Shown: positions 41,886-49,179 of the stretch, one piece after another
How the letters are laid out: each line of letters starts with the position of its first letter
Position numbering within the stretch: the first letter of the stretch is position 1
DNA from: an uncultured Spirochaetaceae bacterium
GTDB lineage: Bacteria; Spirochaetota; Spirochaetia; Sphaerochaetales; Sphaerochaetaceae
DNA: 59,559 nucleotides
Assembly: GCA_900315435.1 (NCBI GenBank)
Contig: OMYY01000017.1
Location: 1 to 59,559, forward strand
Direction of reading: 5' to 3'
Made by a program: the position numbers and the translations under genes
Notes under the pieces: model-generated
Seen by the model: the letters and a program-made list of their open reading frames with translations, nothing else
Database searches by the model: none
What the model was told of the DNA's origin: nothing

Positions 41886-41911
41886 TTGTTTGCCGCCTGG
41901 TGGTGTTCCAG

Positions 41912-41938
41912 CCCCCGTTGACCGGGGGTGTCTTTTTG
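41912..41938 (+). terminator. Rho-independent terminator after the EamA gene
   Basis: CCCCCG-TTGAC-CGGGGG stem-loop followed by TGTCTTTTT, about 27 bases after the stop. Confidence 0.85.
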
Positions 41939-41983: not shown

Positions 41984-42036
41984 TTTCACAAATTTGTTGC
42001 AAATAATTTTATTAGGTTTTACAGTTATTTGTGAAA
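41984..42036 (+). promoter_or_regulatory. Promoter of the AfuABC/murQ operon enclosed by an inverted repeat
   Basis: TTGCAA (41997-42002), 17 bases, TACAGT (42020-42025) form the promoter. A perfect 10-base inverted repeat brackets it: TTTCACAAAT at 41984-41993 just upstream of the -35 and ATTTGTGAAA at 42027-42036 just after the -10. Centre-to-centre distance is 43 bases, about four helical turns. A regulator bound at both arms would hold the promoter closed; the RpiR protein of this operon is the natural candidate. Confidence 0.6.
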
Positions 42037-42064
42037 ACTTTTTACATGACTGAAGGGGGTTTCT

Positions 42065-43102
42065 ATGAAAAGGATGGCGCTGGTGCTGACAGGATTGTGT
42101 TTCGCTTCGTTGGCGTTCGCACAAGGGACCAAGGAGACTGCCGCTTCCGGGCAGCCGGCAAAGAGTGACCGCCTCGTGCTGATCACTTCGACCGCGGCGG
42201 ACAATCTGGACGCGGTCGTTCCCGCCTTCGAGCAGAAGTACGGGGTGAAGGTCGACATCATTACCGGTAGTACCGGAGAGGTCTATTCCCGCATTCAGGC
42301 GGAAAAGGACAATCCTTCCACGGATATCACCTGGATCGGGGAGTACTACGCGTTGAAGGATCCCCAGTTCTTCGAGCCCTACGTGTCGAGCCATGACGGG
42401 GAGTACCCCGAGAAGTTCCGCAATACCTCGGGCATGTTCACCGCGGTGAATGGCACCTGTCCGGTGATCATCTACAACACGAAGCTGGTCTCCAAGGACA
42501 TCAAGGGGTACAGCGACCTTCTGGATCCGTCCTTGAAGGGGCAGATTGCGTTTGGCGACGCGGGAACTTCCTCGTCCGCCTACAACCACCTGGAGAACAT
42601 GCTGCTTGACTTCGGCAAAGGCGACGTGGACGCCCAGGCCGGGTGGGACTACGTGGCATCGCTGCTGAAGCAGTTGGATGGACGTATCGTCAACAGCAGT
42701 TCGGTGACCTACAAGGGCGTGGTGAGCGGCGAGTATGCCGTAGGCTTGGCCTGGGACGCGCCGGCGCTCCAGCTGGTTTCCGCCGGTACTCCGGACGTGA
42801 AGTTCTGCTATATGGCCGAAGGCTCCGCTTCGAAGCTTTCCGGCATGTGCATCGTCAAGGGCGCGAAGAACCTGGAGAACGCCAGGCTGTTTGTCGACTT
42901 CATCTCCTCCAAGGAAGGACAGGAGCTGATCGCGAAGCAGACTGCGGGAGCCAACCCGGTACGCACTGATGTCGAGCTGCCGGATGCCAAGGCGGTCATG
43001 AAGAGCGCCAGCATCTTCCCGGTCGACGCCGTATGGTCGAGCAAGATCAAGAAGGGCGTGCAGGAGAAGTTCACGAGCCTGATGATGGACATCATGAAAT
43101 AA
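42065..43102 (+). CDS. AfuA/FbpA-type ABC transporter substrate-binding protein
   Basis: 345 aa periplasmic binding protein with a signal peptide (MKRMALVLTGLCFASLAFA, then QGTKE) and no lipobox. Mature part: LVLITSTAADNLDAVVPAFEQKYGVKVDIITGSTGEVYSRI, then STDITWIG and VIIYNTKLV, as in family 1 proteins once called iron-binding. Several AfuA-type relatives bind sugar phosphates and others aminoethylphosphonate or iron. GAAGGGGG precedes the ATG. It is first in an operon that continues into RpiR and murQ, which favours an amino-sugar (phosphate) ligand over iron. Confidence 0.88.
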   Translation: MKRMALVLTGLCFASLAFAQGTKETAASGQPAKSDRLVLITSTAADNLDAVVPAFEQKYGVKVDIITGSTGEVYSRIQAEKDNPSTDITWIGEYYALKDPQFFEPYVSSHDGEYPEKFRNTSGMFTAVNGTCPVIIYNTKLVSKDIKGYSDLLDPSLKGQIAFGDAGTSSSAYNHLENMLLDFGKGDVDAQAGWDYVASLLKQLDGRIVNSSSVTYKGVVSGEYAVGLAWDAPALQLVSAGTPDVKFCYMAEGSASKLSGMCIVKGAKNLENARLFVDFISSKEGQELIAKQTAGANPVRTDVELPDAKAVMKSASIFPVDAVWSSKIKKGVQEKFTSLMMDIMK

Positions 43103-43121
43103 AGGACCGGGGGGCGTGTCG

Positions 43122-44195
43122 ATGAGTGTCGCGATCCACATTGCGCATGCGCGCAAGGCATATGGCGGGAATGTCATCATTCCGGATTTGAGCCTGGACG
43201 TCGAGGAGGGTGAGTTCTTCACGTTGCTCGGCTCTTCGGGATGCGGCAAGACCACGCTGCTGCGCATGATTGCCGGTTTCAATACCATCGAGGGAGGCGA
43301 TTTCTTCTTCAACGGGCAGCGCATCAACGACATCCCCCGCAACAAGAGGAACATCGGCATGGTCTTCCAGAACTATGCCGTGTTCCCCCATATGACGACG
43401 TTCGAGAATGTGGCGTTCGGTCTGGAACAACGGCACGTCAAGGATCCTGAGAAGACAAGGCGCGTGGAGGAGATGCTCGACATGGTGCAGATTTCCGCGC
43501 TTCGCGACCGGAAGCCCCAGAACATGTCCGGCGGCCAGCAGCAGCGTATCGCCCTTGCCAGAGCCATCGTCATCCAGCCTGACGTGCTGTTGATGGACGA
43601 GCCCCTTTCCAACCTGGACGCGAAGCTTCGCATCGAGATGCGTGGAGCGATCAGGTCCATCCAGAAACGATCGGGAATCACCACGGTGTATGTCACCCAC
43701 GACCAGAGCGAGGCCTTGGCGGTCAGCGACCGTATCGCCATCATGCACAAGGGGGTCATCCAGCAGGTGGGTACTCCGCTTGAGGTGTATTGCCACCCAA
43801 GCAATCTCTTCTGCGCTACCTTCATCGGGGAAAGCAACATGCTGGAGGCGACCGCGCTTGGTGGCCGCAAGATAGGTTTCCCGGATGGAGGCCGCATGGA
43901 GGTCCCGTTCCTTTCCGACCGGGTGGCGGAGGGCCGCAAGGTGAAGGTGTGCGTGCGTCCCGACGAGTTCGTCTTCTCCGATACGGGCGTTGCCGCGAAG
44001 GTGGTTGCCCGTACCTTCCTCGGTTCCTCGTACGAGTACCAGGTCGCGTTGCCGGGTGGATTCGCCGTGAAGGTCGAGACAGGTACCCATCACGCGGTCC
44101 TCGATGTGGACGAACCTGTCCACCTTGCCTTCGATCCTTCCATCATCAACGTCTTCGACGGAGAGAGCGGGGATTCCCTGATGGCGAAGGAGTGA
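43122..44195 (+). CDS. ABC transporter ATP-binding protein (AfuC/PotA-like)
   Basis: 357 aa ATPase with Walker A (GSSGCGKTT), Q-loop (MVFQNYAVFPHM), signature (MSGGQQQRIALARA), Walker B (VLLMDEPLSNLD), H-loop (YVTHDQSEAL) and a C-terminal TOBE region (about 235-345). The ATG chosen is 6 bases inside an in-frame GTG. It energises the permease gene that begins two bases after its stop. Confidence 0.94.
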   Translation: MSVAIHIAHARKAYGGNVIIPDLSLDVEEGEFFTLLGSSGCGKTTLLRMIAGFNTIEGGDFFFNGQRINDIPRNKRNIGMVFQNYAVFPHMTTFENVAFGLEQRHVKDPEKTRRVEEMLDMVQISALRDRKPQNMSGGQQQRIALARAIVIQPDVLLMDEPLSNLDAKLRIEMRGAIRSIQKRSGITTVYVTHDQSEALAVSDRIAIMHKGVIQQVGTPLEVYCHPSNLFCATFIGESNMLEATALGGRKIGFPDGGRMEVPFLSDRVAEGRKVKVCVRPDEFVFSDTGVAAKVVARTFLGSSYEYQVALPGGFAVKVETGTHHAVLDVDEPVHLAFDPSIINVFDGESGDSLMAKE

Positions 44196-44197
44196 CG

Positions 44198-45850
44198 ATG
44201 ATGCGAAGAGTCCGCTCTGATTACTGGGCCATGGTGACCGGCCTTTCCATCGCTTTCTTCCTGCTTTTCTTCATCTATCCTGTCTCACGGGTCTTCGTGA
44301 ACAGCGTCTATGATGTCAAGACAGGCACGTTCTCTCTGGATGCGTTCCGGAAGTTCTTCAGCAAGCAATACTACACCTCGACCATCGCGAACAGCTTCAA
44401 GGTGACGACAGCCGCGACCTTGGTCACGCTCCTTTCCGGGTCCCTGATGGCGTACATCATGTCCACGGTCTCGATCCGCGGCAAACGTGTCATCGACCTG
44501 ATGGTCATCGTTTCCATCCTTTCTCCTCCGTTCATCGGAGCCTACTCCTGGATTATCCTTCTCGGACGCGCGGGTATCGTCACCAAGGCGCTTGACGCCG
44601 CTCTCCACGTGCGCCTGCCGGGAATCTATGGTTTTATGGGGATCCTGCTTGTCTTCACGGTGAAGATGACGCCGCTGATGTATCTTTTCGTGTCGGGAGC
44701 GCTCAAGAAGATCGACGCGTCCTTGATCGAGTGCGCGGAAGGGTTGGGATGCGTCGGATTCCGGAAGCTTCGGAAAATCGTCTTTCCGCTGGTGCTTCCC
44801 ACCATCCTGAGTTCCTCGTTCCTGGTCTTCATGCGCATTTTCTGTGATTTCGGTACCCCGATGCTTATCGGGGAAGGGTACCGGACGGTGCCGGTCCTGA
44901 TCTACAACTCGTTCATCGGAGAGATGGACCAGGACTATGCCTTCGCCGCCGCCATGAGCGTGATTGTCATCGCCTTCAGCGTGGTGGTCTTTGTCGCGCA
45001 GCAGGTCATCGCCAACCGCTCTACCATCGAGATGAGTTCGCTCCGTCCTCCGGTTCCCGAACGGAAACGCGGGGTGTGGAACTTGCTTGCCCACCTGTTT
45101 GTCTGGCTGGTCGCGGTGCTGTCGGTGCTTCCCCTGTGCGTCGTCGTGGTCCAGTCCTTCAAGAAGACCGATGGCATCGTCTACCTCAACCAGTTCTCCC
45201 TGGCGAGCTACCGGAACGCCTTCTCGAGCGTCGGGTACTCGATCCTCAATACCTTCACCTATTCGTTTGCCGCCATGTGCTTCATCCTGATGGTCGGCGT
45301 CCTGTTCAGCTATGCCTCGGTACGGCATCCCAACAAGGCGACGAAGGTGCTGGATGTGGTCACGACATTGCCGTATATCATTCCCGGTTCCATCATGGGC
45401 ATCTCCCTGATTCTTGGGTTCAACAAGCGGCCATTGCTGTTGACAGGCACCGCCTTCATCATGATTGTCGTCTACATCGTGCGCCGTATGCCCTACACCA
45501 TCCGCAGCAGCAGCGCGATTCTCCGGCAGGTGGATCCTTCCTTGGAGGAAGCCGCCGTGAGCCTGGGGGCGAGCGATGCTGCCAGCTTCTGGAAAATCAC
45601 CTTTCCGGTGATGTTGCCGGGAGTCACTTCGGGCGCGCTGATGAGCTGGATGAGCATCATCACCGAGTTGTCGGCGACCGTGCTGCTCTATACCACGAAG
45701 ACCCAGACCATCTCGATCGCCATCTACCAGGAGGTCATCCGGGGGAACGAGGGGGTAGCCTGCGCGCTCTCCACGATACTGCTTGCGACGACCGTCATCG
45801 CGCTTTCCCTCTTTTTCAAGCTGAGCGGCAAGAGGGAGATTTCGTTATGA
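44198..45850 (+). CDS. ABC transporter permease, fused two-domain (AfuB type)
   Basis: 550 aa with about twelve transmembrane helices, two permease domains joined in one chain as in AfuB/FbpB. Each half carries an EAA loop: ECAEGLGCVGFRKLRKIVFP and EAAVSLGASDAASFWKITFP. AAGGAG lies in the end of the ATPase gene. The stop overlaps the RpiR gene start by four bases, so transporter and regulator are translationally coupled. Confidence 0.93.
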   Translation: MMRRVRSDYWAMVTGLSIAFFLLFFIYPVSRVFVNSVYDVKTGTFSLDAFRKFFSKQYYTSTIANSFKVTTAATLVTLLSGSLMAYIMSTVSIRGKRVIDLMVIVSILSPPFIGAYSWIILLGRAGIVTKALDAALHVRLPGIYGFMGILLVFTVKMTPLMYLFVSGALKKIDASLIECAEGLGCVGFRKLRKIVFPLVLPTILSSSFLVFMRIFCDFGTPMLIGEGYRTVPVLIYNSFIGEMDQDYAFAAAMSVIVIAFSVVVFVAQQVIANRSTIEMSSLRPPVPERKRGVWNLLAHLFVWLVAVLSVLPLCVVVVQSFKKTDGIVYLNQFSLASYRNAFSSVGYSILNTFTYSFAAMCFILMVGVLFSYASVRHPNKATKVLDVVTTLPYIIPGSIMGISLILGFNKRPLLLTGTAFIMIVVYIVRRMPYTIRSSSAILRQVDPSLEEAAVSLGASDAASFWKITFPVMLPGVTSGALMSWMSIITELSATVLLYTTKTQTISIAIYQEVIRGNEGVACALSTILLATTVIALSLFFKLSGKREISL

Positions 45851-46686
45851 TCACGCGGCTGAAGGAAATCCGCAATTCGCTGTCCGACAAGGACCGGGCT
45901 GTGGCCGACTATCTGATCGGGCATGCCCCCGAGGTGCTCAACCTATCCATCGGCACCTTGGGCGAGCGTGCCGGTGTCTCCGCGGCCACGGTCAGCCGCT
46001 TCGCCAAGACCTTGTTCGGGATGACCTTCCCCCAGCTGAAGGTGGCCCTCGCGCAGGATGTGGCGGGAGGAGGCGGCAAGCAGGAGGATTACGCCTTGTC
46101 CATCCAGAGCGGCATGGACCAGATCCAGCACCGGTTGGCGGCGAACCTGCAGCAGCTGTTCTTCGAAACCTGCATACTGAATCCGGCATCGAAATTTTCC
46201 GAGATCGCGGCTCGGATCGCCAAGGCGAAGCACGTGTACCTGTTCGGCATCGGCGCCAGCGGGCTTGCGGTCCAGGATCTTGCCCAGAAACTGGTCAAGC
46301 TGGGCAAGAGGACGAGCTTCAACATGGATTCCAACCTGGCGATCCTCAATTCCTCGCTCTGCACCGATGAGGATTTCGTCATCGCTATCAGTTACAGCGG
46401 TCTGTCCAAAGAGGTCCTGCTTCCCGCTAGGAAGGCCAAATCCTGCGGGTGCCCCGTGCTCGCGATCACCAGCACCGAGAAGAATCCGCTGCGGCGTATC
46501 GCGGACTACGAGCTCGTGGTGCCGTTGGCGGAGTCGAAAATCGTCCGTATCACGGCAATCTACTCGCGTTACGGGCAGTTCTTCCTGGTGGACCAGCTGT
46601 TCCTCGCGGTGATGAAGGAGCTGGGCGCTGAACCTGAGGAGTTCTATGACCGCTACAACGACTTGTTGCTTGAGCTCAAGAAATGA
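45847..46686 (+). CDS. RpiR/MurR-family transcriptional regulator
   Basis: 279 aa. An N-terminal HTH_6 domain (LSIGTLGERAGVSAATVSRFAKTL cut here as residues about 33-56) is followed by a SIS sugar-phosphate-binding domain (VYLFGIGASGLAVQD; ISYSGLSKEVL; ITSTEKNPL). Regulators of this family sense phosphosugars; MurR of E. coli senses MurNAc-6-phosphate. It lies between the transporter and murQ, overlapping the permease stop (ATGA) and nearly overlapping murQ. Likely controls this operon through the repeat around the promoter at 42.0 kb. Confidence 0.92.
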   Translation: MITRLKEIRNSLSDKDRAVADYLIGHAPEVLNLSIGTLGERAGVSAATVSRFAKTLFGMTFPQLKVALAQDVAGGGGKQEDYALSIQSGMDQIQHRLAANLQQLFFETCILNPASKFSEIAARIAKAKHVYLFGIGASGLAVQDLAQKLVKLGKRTSFNMDSNLAILNSSLCTDEDFVIAISYSGLSKEVLLPARKAKSCGCPVLAITSTEKNPLRRIADYELVVPLAESKIVRITAIYSRYGQFFLVDQLFLAVMKELGAEPEEFYDRYNDLLLELKK

Positions 46687-46697
46687 AGGAGGCAGTG

Positions 46698-47594
46698 ATG
46701 ATTCCTGTAACCGAACAGGTCAACCCATGCTCGAAAGGTATTGATACGAAACCCACGCTGGACATCCTGCGGATCATGAACGACCAGGACAAGCAGGTGG
46801 CATTCGCCGTCGAAAAGGCGCTACCTTCCATCGCTCCGCTGGTCGACCGGATCGTGGAGGCGTTCCATGCCGGCGGACGGCTGGTCTATATCGGGGCGGG
46901 CACCAGCGGCCGTCTCGGGGTGCTGGACGCCTCCGAGTGCCCTCCGACGTTCGGGGTGCCCCGCTCCCTGGTGGTCGGCATCATCGCGGGTGGCGAACAA
47001 GCGCTCCGCTTTTCGGTGGAGAACGCCGAGGACGACGAACAGGCGGGGAAGGAGGATCTGGCCCGCATCGGTCTTTCCCGCCGGGACGTGGTGGTGGGAC
47101 TGACTGCGAGCGGAAGGGCGCCGTATGTGGTCGGCGCGCTTTCCTATGCCCGCTCGCTGCACGCGGCCACCGCCAGCATCGCCTGCAACGCGGACGCCAA
47201 GACCTTTACGGTAAGCGATTTCCCCCTCTATGTGGATGTCGGGCCTGAAATCATCACAGGCAGTACCCGCCTGAAGAGCGGTACCGCGGAGAAGATGGTC
47301 CTCAACATGCTGACCACCACGGCCATGATCAGGATGGGGTATGTCTACGACAACTACATGGTCAACCTGAAGGCTTCCAACAGCAAGCTCAACGAGCGGG
47401 CAAAACGATTGGTGCGTAGCATTTCGGGTTGTCCGGAAGCGGAGACGGAACGCGCGTGGGACGCCAGCGGAAAGAGCGTGCCGGTGGCGGTGCTGGTCGC
47501 CCGCTACGGGATGGACGCAGCATCCGCGAGAAAACTCCTGGAAGCCAGTGGAGGCAACCTGCATACTGCCTTGGAAACACTCGGGACACAATGA
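46698..47594 (+). CDS. murQ: N-acetylmuramic acid 6-phosphate etherase
   Basis: SIS-domain lyase that removes D-lactate from MurNAc-6-phosphate to give GlcNAc-6-phosphate in peptidoglycan recycling. 298 aa, the family length. Signature GAGTSGRLGVLDASECPPTFG is present (split here: residues about 57-77), with the acidic VENAEDDEQAG and GLTASGRAPYV. A C-terminal UBA-like helix set (AASARKLLEASGGNLHTAL) is also typical. The start at 46698 has AAGGAGG upstream; the ATG at 46683 overlaps the RpiR stop and is an alternative. The presence of murQ in a transporter operon is the best clue to what the operon imports. Confidence 0.95.
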   Translation: MIPVTEQVNPCSKGIDTKPTLDILRIMNDQDKQVAFAVEKALPSIAPLVDRIVEAFHAGGRLVYIGAGTSGRLGVLDASECPPTFGVPRSLVVGIIAGGEQALRFSVENAEDDEQAGKEDLARIGLSRRDVVVGLTASGRAPYVVGALSYARSLHAATASIACNADAKTFTVSDFPLYVDVGPEIITGSTRLKSGTAEKMVLNMLTTTAMIRMGYVYDNYMVNLKASNSKLNERAKRLVRSISGCPEAETERAWDASGKSVPVAVLVARYGMDAASARKLLEASGGNLHTALETLGTQ

Positions 47595-47642
47595 CTTTTC
47601 TTGGCGCTTTCGGTACAATGCCATCCAACAAGGGGAATTGCC

Positions 47643-48863
47643 ATGCTTTCACTGGATATTGGAACCACGAAAATCTGCCTGATGGAGCTGAATGACGAGA
47701 ACTCGGTGCTCGACACCAAGGTCGTGGACAACAAAGGCACGACTATTGACGACGGGTTCTGCCACGAGCAGGACGCCGACGTGATTTTCGGCCAGGTGCA
47801 GGCGTTGCTGAAGGGAAAGGAAAAGGACCACCTGGCTCTCACCGGGCAAATGCACGGCTTCGTCCTGATCGACAAGGAGGGGAATGCGCAGAGTCCCTGC
47901 ATCACCTGGCGCGACCAGCGCATCAAAGGCATGCACCTGCCGGGCGATCCGGAACGGACCGGTTGCAAGATCCATCGCGGATATGCCGCGGGAACGTTGG
48001 TCTGGATGCAGAAACAGGGGCAGGACCTGAAGGGGTTGCGGGCGGTGAGCCTTCCCGGATACATCCAGGGCAAGCTGACCGGCGACTTCTCGATCGACGA
48101 CGAGAACGCCGCCAGCTGGGGCATCTACGACGTGAAGGCCCATACCTGGGACTGGAACCTTGTCGACCAACTCGGGCTTCCTCCCGAAGTCCTTCCCGAG
48201 ATCATCCCCAGCGCCAGCATCGTCGGCCTTGGCGGAAAGCTGGTCGTCCACGCTCCGGTGGGGGACAACCAGGCAAGTGTCTGGTATGTGACCCAGGGTG
48301 GCGGGGCGGCCGTCCTGAACCTGGGTGATGGCGGGCAGATGTCGATTCCCGTCAAGACCTTCGCCTACCGTTCCGGGCAGGAGTGCAGACCGATGCCTGA
48401 TGGTACCTTCATCCAGGTCTACTCCTCGCTCTGTGGCGGGTGGGCCTACGACTACCTGAAGGATTTGGTGAAGGAAATCCTCGGCATCTTCGGCCAGCAG
48501 GTGGATGACGATGTGATTCTGGACAAGATGACCGAACTGGCCTCGCAGAGCGGCCACAGCCTGGGAGTCAACACCCGTTTCGCCGGTACCCGCGAGGACG
48601 CCACGCTCAAAGGTTCCATCACCAATATCGACCAGCAGAACCTTACCCTGGGGAACCTCGCCTATGGCTTCCTAGAGGGTATGGCGCGTGAGCTACGCGA
48701 CGCGACCGACTGGAAGGGACCGGTCTTCGCCACCGGATTGTCCGTGCGGAAGAATGCCGTGCTCCAGCAGATTATCAGGAACATGTTCCCGACGACGGTC
48801 GTACCCCGCCGCATGAAGCAGGAAGAGGCTGCCTACGGCGCAGCCCTGTTGGTCAGGAACTGA
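47643..48863 (+). CDS. FGGY-family carbohydrate kinase (sedoheptulokinase-like)
   Basis: 406 aa, shorter than most FGGY kinases (about 480-520). N-terminal LSLDIGTTKICL phosphate-binding loop, ALTGQMHGFVL, CITWRDQR, TQGGGAAVLNLGDGGQMS and the C-terminal FATGLSVRKNAVLQQII with EEAAYGAAL. The QMHG and short length resemble sedoheptulokinases. AAGGGG precedes the ATG, 48 bases after murQ. In this operon it might phosphorylate the imported amino sugar before MurQ acts, which would be a new role for the fold; a role on another sugar is as likely. Confidence 0.85.
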   Translation: MLSLDIGTTKICLMELNDENSVLDTKVVDNKGTTIDDGFCHEQDADVIFGQVQALLKGKEKDHLALTGQMHGFVLIDKEGNAQSPCITWRDQRIKGMHLPGDPERTGCKIHRGYAAGTLVWMQKQGQDLKGLRAVSLPGYIQGKLTGDFSIDDENAASWGIYDVKAHTWDWNLVDQLGLPPEVLPEIIPSASIVGLGGKLVVHAPVGDNQASVWYVTQGGGAAVLNLGDGGQMSIPVKTFAYRSGQECRPMPDGTFIQVYSSLCGGWAYDYLKDLVKEILGIFGQQVDDDVILDKMTELASQSGHSLGVNTRFAGTREDATLKGSITNIDQQNLTLGNLAYGFLEGMARELRDATDWKGPVFATGLSVRKNAVLQQIIRNMFPTTVVPRRMKQEEAAYGAALLVRN

Positions 48864-48876
48864 GGAGGAAAGGAAT

Positions 48877-49179
48877 ATGCTTACGGTCTACGGAATCCAG
48901 TCCTGCGGAACGTGCAGGGAGATGAGAGCGGCCTTCGACAAGGCCGGCGTGCCATACGTCTACAAAAATTTCAGCGAGAACATCCAGAACCTGAAGGACT
49001 TCCTGAAGCTCCGCGATTCCCTCCCGCTCTTCGACGAAGTCAAGGCCAGGGGCGGGGTGGGTACCCCATGCCTGGTTTCCGATGACGGGAAGGTGACCTT
49101 GGACTGGGAGCAATTCCTGCCTGCAGGGTTCCCAATGGAGGAGCGGAACGCCTGCTCCCGGGACGGAAAGAGCTGCTGA
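48877..49179 (+). CDS. ArsC/Spx-like glutaredoxin-fold protein
   Basis: 100 aa thioredoxin-fold protein with an N-terminal CxxC (QSCGTCREM). The segment VGTPCLVSDDG has the cis-proline and an extra cysteine, and two more cysteines end the chain (CSRDGKSC). It starts 13 bases after the kinase with a GAGGAGG site, so it is the last gene of the murQ operon. Probably a thiol-redox or metal-handling protein; classical arsenate reductase is unlikely in this context. Confidence 0.75.
   Translation: MLTVYGIQSCGTCREMRAAFDKAGVPYVYKNFSENIQNLKDFLKLRDSLPLFDEVKARGGVGTPCLVSDDGKVTLDWEQFLPAGFPMEERNACSRDGKSC

Follow-up and report, generated by a model that had tools for sequence, protein, structure and literature searches.

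Organization of the gene cluster

The window, by which we mean the whole 59,559-nucleotide stretch of DNA analysed here, is part of the 2.8-Mb draft genome of a spirochaete, and all genomes compared with it are draft assemblies. Seven genes on its plus strand make up a cluster that is divided from an EamA gene upstream by a terminator-like hairpin. The features of the locus are the following.

41911–41929, plus strand: terminator-like hairpin at the end of the EamA gene upstream (pattern match only)
41984–42036, no strand: upstream region with a 10-bp inverted repeat, possible RpiR operator (shuffle test; weak)
42065–43102, plus strand: AfuA-like periplasmic binding protein, cluster D fold (domains, sequence and fold matches)
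43116 (or 43122)–44195, plus strand: ATPase of an ABC importer, AfuC/PotA type, TOBE_2 (domains)
44198–45850, plus strand: permease of the ABC importer, double length, AfuB/PhnU2 type, two BPD_transp_1 (domains, permease tree)
45847–46686, plus strand: RpiR/MurR-type regulator with a SIS domain (domains, synteny)
46698–47594, plus strand: MurQ, N-acetylmuramic acid 6-phosphate etherase (TIGR00274, motifs)
47643–48863, plus strand: FGGY-family sugar kinase, accessory, at this place in the window's genus only (domains)
48877–49179, plus strand: glutaredoxin-like CxxC (CGTC) protein, accessory (domain models)

An earlier note on this DNA had described seven tightly spaced genes in which a complete ABC importer is coupled to RpiR and followed by MurQ, and this layout holds. 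The permease stop overlaps the RpiR start in an ATGA, MurQ begins 11 nt past the RpiR stop and is preceded by AAGGAGG, and gaps of 48 and 13 nt lie ahead of the FGGY and CxxC genes. The binding protein matches SBP_bac_8/11/6, the ATPase ABC_tran with TOBE_2, the regulator HTH_6 with SIS and the kinase FGGY_N, while the two BPD_transp_1 domains of the permease lie in one double-length protein. Upstream of the binding-protein gene, the arms TTTCACAAAT (41984–41993) and ATTTGTGAAA (42027–42036) form a perfect 10-bp inverted repeat, and no 10-bp repeat arose in any of 200 mononucleotide shuffles. A search for an RpiR operator shared across the cassettes found none; the repeat is a weak candidate for this role because its arms are incomplete in locus L099 and absent from loci L100 and L101.

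MurQ scores 364.8 bits against the equivalog model TIGR00274 (cut-off 302), and its counterparts in three other cassettes score 351.7 (L100), 339.8 (L101) and 371.6 (L108). In the alignment it retains the motifs ECPPTFG and ENAEDD; we take ECPPTFG and AED to be the conserved acidic active-site motifs of MurQ, with a catalytic role.

The FGGY protein is an unassigned member of its family that reaches 93.9 bits against the XylB model (cut-off 380), and its closest relatives (37–40%) occur in clusters that have no MurQ and hold either a CUT2-type sugar importer, a PfkB kinase and an aldolase, or a CUT1 importer, the functions of these neighbours being read by eye. For two relatives in another genus (L132 and L133) the neighbours are a CUT2-type sugar importer, a PfkB kinase, a class II aldolase and a transketolase, again read by eye, which suggests ketose metabolism. 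We regard the FGGY protein as most likely a genus-specific addition. The last gene had been called ArsC-like; it encodes instead a glutaredoxin-like protein with the motif CGTC and weak matches to glutaredoxin and YruB models, its likeness to ArsC being distant (20.6 bits against TIGR01617, arsC_related, cut-off 75).

Conservation of the cassette and the supply of MurNAc-6-phosphate

The cassette was sought in a public genome collection and in 119 genomes of the window's family. Its core of binding protein, ATPase, permease, RpiR and MurQ is found in the same order in three genera, namely the window's own (genomes G000 and G004), that of G015 (locus L100) and that of G096 (locus L101). Identities in this gene order are 73/66/75/56/55% for G015 and 67/63/70/51/52% for G096; RpiR accompanies the importer in the other cassettes at 51–56% identity. 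The arrangement is not due to chance, since two other genera keep the five-gene core in the same order at 51–75% identity. MurQ is the sole enzyme of this core. The earlier note had suggested a survey for the conserved order of all seven genes and would have counted its absence from every relative as a refutation, which is not the outcome; three genera share the five-gene core, and the full seven occur within one genus only, where alone the FGGY and CxxC genes follow MurQ. The binding protein is 95% identical in a relative from the window's genus, and in a sample of 393 genomes of the phylum these lineages alone have a binding protein of comparable closeness (E ≤ 1e-70).

A further cassette lies in one Bacillota genome (G476, locus L108), where binding protein, ATPase, permease, MurQ, RpiR and NagB are accompanied by a divergent NagA. 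Relatives of the importer in Bacillota are 40–62% identical. A histidine kinase and a response regulator stand beside the importer in several of the loci L102–L107 and in about 40% of the Erysipelotrichales set, where the neighbours are HptRS-like two-component systems or SIS_2 phosphosugar proteins, and MurQ was found in none of the 59 fetched Erysipelotrichales neighbourhoods with the importer. Many Erysipelotrichales have the full importer next to a histidine kinase and an AraC-type response regulator in an HptRS-like layout (L103, L106, L247, L252–L254, L262, L264 and others), and at L248 (11993–13446) and L256 (6522–7971) an importer of the family adjoins two neighbouring SIS_2 phosphosugar-binding proteins (PRK02947 family, one checked).

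A tree of 71 permeases unites the four spirochaete proteins linked to MurQ in one clade (100/100) and places that of L108 in another. Its well-supported branches require the MurQ label to change twice, which indicates that importer and MurQ became linked on at least two occasions, or else lost their link many times. A constant association of MurQ with the importer is rejected by the Erysipelotrichales neighbourhoods and by the restriction of MurQ-linked permeases to two branches of this tree. A single origin of the whole cassette including MurQ is likewise unsupported, as the G015 enzyme lies apart from those of the window and G096 in the MurQ tree, with branch support left open.

In the known routes, the MurNAc-6-phosphate used by MurQ comes from sugar that a PTS (MurP) or a kinase (AnmK, MurK) phosphorylates at the cell membrane or inside it. 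The neighbourhoods of MurQ genes above the curated cut-off in the window's family were searched for AnmK, BadF/MurK-type kinases and importers. Among untruncated MurQ loci without an AfuABC-like importer, 46 of 48 have an AnmK or BadF/MurK-type kinase in the fetched neighbourhood; the kinase lies within 2 kb of MurQ in 59 of 61 kinase-bearing loci, at a median gap of 30 nt, and the identities of a sample of these kinases were confirmed. Both MurQ loci of G048 (L137 and L198) have neither a nearby kinase nor an AfuABC-like importer. No AnmK/MurK-type kinase is found near the cassette in any of the three genera or at L108, and the chance of three independent loci all being without one is 5e-4; at these loci the importer takes the place of the kinase.

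The absence extends genome-wide for AnmK in all five cassette genomes (G000, G004, G015, G096 and G476) and for MurK-like kinases in all of these except G004, which encodes one 319-aa MurK-like kinase far from the cassette locus. Apart from this kinase of G004, BadF-family matches in the cassette genomes look, when read by eye, like 2-hydroxyacyl-CoA dehydratase activases. The earlier observation that the locus holds no PTS gene can be widened to the window's whole genome assembly, in which PTS_EIIC has no match. All five cassette genomes lack a MurP-type PTS, and only G096 has an EIIC, in a GlcNAc-type IIBC. A genome of the window's own genus, G024, has no binding protein of the cassette clade and carries NagZ, GNAT, AnmK and MurQ together with another ABC importer instead. 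The simplest reading is that the importer delivers the sugar already phosphorylated and so makes a kinase unnecessary.

The loci of the family that combine MurQ with a MurNAc kinase (L150–L162, L166–L174, L182–L196, L136 and others) adjoin ABC importers of the Opp, CUT1 and Lpl types, which are candidates for the uptake of MurNAc, anhydro-MurNAc or muropeptides; the family MurQ loci that were read showed no PTS. In G018 (L146, 11254–12381), a gene for the exo-muramidase NamZ (PF07075, PF20732) adjoins NagZ, AnmK and MurQ.

The binding protein and its putative ligand

The closest solved relative of the binding protein is AfuA (4r72), by sequence (E 3.7e-24) as well as by fold (E 1.3e-23; Z 34.5 at 27% identity, next 30.7; pLDDT of the predicted fold 87.6). 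AfuA is followed by VcA0625 (G6P) and P5PA (PLP) when the sequence is searched, and a profile of the family places HptA second best in the PDB. The ligand of HptA is G6P (PMC13419708), and AfuA takes G6P, F6P and S7P, with Ser37 and Thr150 as phosphate contacts and His205, Asp206 and Glu229 as sugar contacts; the latter three are essential for G6P binding, and the AfuA study defines the family by them (PMC4546632).

In the cassette protein the phosphate-contact hydroxyls are kept, Ser37 and Thr150 aligning with T70 and S171, of which S171 is invariant in ten relatives, whereas the sugar contacts His205, Asp206 and Glu229 are replaced by A232, P233 and K257. As AfuA's essential sugar contacts are not conserved, phosphosugar binding is argued from kinship and the two hydroxyls; because all three contacts are replaced, the alignment leads us to expect a phosphosugar that is not a simple hexose phosphate. 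The MurQ-linked proteins have in common a set of residues, at 125–132, 168, 232–237 and 255–258, that none of six relatives lacking MurQ shares; these overlap in part with the segments of the mapped AfuA contacts. We infer that MurNAc-6-phosphate, with its extra N-acetyl and negatively charged lactyl groups, would fit such a protein. That Lys257 might contact the carboxylate is speculation: every MurQ-linked protein examined has Lys at this position, but two of the six others have it too.

A proposed route for import of MurNAc-6-phosphate

Taken as a whole, the comparative evidence points to a catabolic unit for MurNAc-6-phosphate from outside the cell that would need neither kinase nor PTS, a reading to which we give a probability of roughly 0.6. 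The binding protein would capture MurNAc-6-phosphate, or a very close phosphomuramyl sugar, by way of its phosphate, and the fused permease and the ATPase would import it at the cost of ATP. Control of the operon probably lies with the RpiR protein, its SIS domain serving as sensor of the phosphosugar. MurQ would then take off the lactyl ether to yield GlcNAc-6-phosphate and D-lactate, from which NagA, encoded elsewhere in the genome and present in all five cassette genomes, could continue. Since the sugar would arrive phosphorylated, no kinase or PTS would be required.

Direct import of MurNAc-6-phosphate or a close phosphosugar was the first of two models in the earlier note, and it emerges as the best explanation, with strong comparative support from the gene order, two independent links between importer and MurQ, the absence of a kinase exactly where the importer is present, and nearest relatives that bind phosphorylated ligands. 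The link between importer and MurQ is confined to three genera and one Bacillota genome. The fuller proposition, in which an ABC importer dedicated to MurNAc-6-phosphate works with MurQ and an RpiR sensor to exploit sugar from the walls of other bacteria by a kinase- and PTS-free route that arose at least twice, stands at about even odds. A possible natural source would be MurNAc residues of Gram-positive walls that bear teichoic acid through an O6 phosphate. Wall teichoic acids are linked to O6 of MurNAc by a phosphodiester (PMC9414505), so that breakdown of Gram-positive walls could release MurNAc-6-phosphate outside cells.

The importer might instead carry unphosphorylated MurNAc or a derivative, to be phosphorylated by a kinase outside the AnmK and MurK families (FGGY here, ROK or another elsewhere). 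The FGGY gene within the operon of G000 and G004 and the loss of the AfuA sugar contacts would suit this account, and the ROK kinases present in all cassette genomes could include an unrecognised MurNAc kinase. We nevertheless consider it unlikely, given that the closest relatives of the binding protein all bind phosphorylated ligands and that a MurNAc kinase adjoins MurQ elsewhere in the family. Importer and MurQ also occur with no adjoining FGGY gene in G015, G096 and the Bacillota genome, and G015 and G096 encode no FGGY protein of the window's subfamily (best E 1.1e-9 and 5.8e-9). Phosphorylation of MurNAc by the FGGY kinase, the second model of the earlier note, is accordingly disfavoured, and the protein is rejected as a general account of the missing kinase because the other cassettes lack its gene.

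Import of another phosphosugar, such as glucose-6-phosphate, GlcNAc-6-phosphate, GlcN-6-phosphate or a heptose phosphate, with MurQ co-regulated for some other reason such as recycling of the cell's own wall, also appears improbable. Most importers of the AfuABC-like family have no MurQ nearby and the substrates of AfuA itself (PMC4546632) are of this kind, yet MurQ is the only enzyme of the conserved core, its link to the importer arose at least twice, and internal recycling through MurQ needs AnmK or another MurNAc kinase, which is missing here as far as known families show. An importer for ferric ion, polyamine, thiamine or 2-aminoethylphosphonate, as generic superfamily annotation would have it, is highly implausible: the fold is common to FbpA proteins and the three ABC proteins score highest in NCBIfam with 2-aminoethylphosphonate and PotA models, but these matches all lie far below their cut-offs, AfuA is the best match in both fold and sequence, and the operon holds RpiR and MurQ and no phosphonate or iron genes. 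By inspection, the stretch that would correspond to the iron-binding Tyr pair of the FbpA C-lobe reads GLAWDAPAL and seems to hold no Tyr pair.

The preferred reading, import of MurNAc-6-phosphate, can be set beside known systems. AfuABC of Actinobacillus pleuropneumoniae and Citrobacter rodentium (PMC4546632) and VcA0625 share with the cassette the type of transporter and the fold of the binding protein; compared with AfuABC, the cassette operon adds RpiR and MurQ. The HptASR system of Staphylococcus aureus, a G6P sensor, resembles it in its binding protein and in the two-component systems beside the Bacillota importers, but HptA works as a sensor in the control of the antiporter UhpT, whereas in the cassette the ABC importer is complete and the regulator, RpiR, is intracellular. 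Like MurP/MurQ/MurR of Escherichia coli, the cassette places MurQ and an RpiR/MurR-type regulator beside an uptake system; there, however, a PTS phosphorylates MurNAc on entry, and here an ABC importer stands with no PTS or kinase. The AnmK and MurK routes (MurK in Clostridium acetobutylicum and Tannerella forsythia), which also lie beside MurQ in most of the family, likewise feed MurQ with MurNAc-6-phosphate, but their loci hold a kinase and the cassette has none; ABC importers of other types adjoin the family's kinase loci as well.

We found no description of an ABC importer for MurNAc-6-phosphate, or of AfuA together with MurQ, in the open-licence literature. All parts of the cassette come from known families. 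Their combination and the resulting route would be new, and the cassette probably represents a new way of salvaging peptidoglycan sugar. If true, a direct importer of MurNAc-6-phosphate would be a third way of supplying MurQ, would add a further class of substrate to the hexose and heptose phosphates of AfuABC-type transporters, and would suggest that MurNAc-6-phosphate is available outside cells in anaerobic communities.
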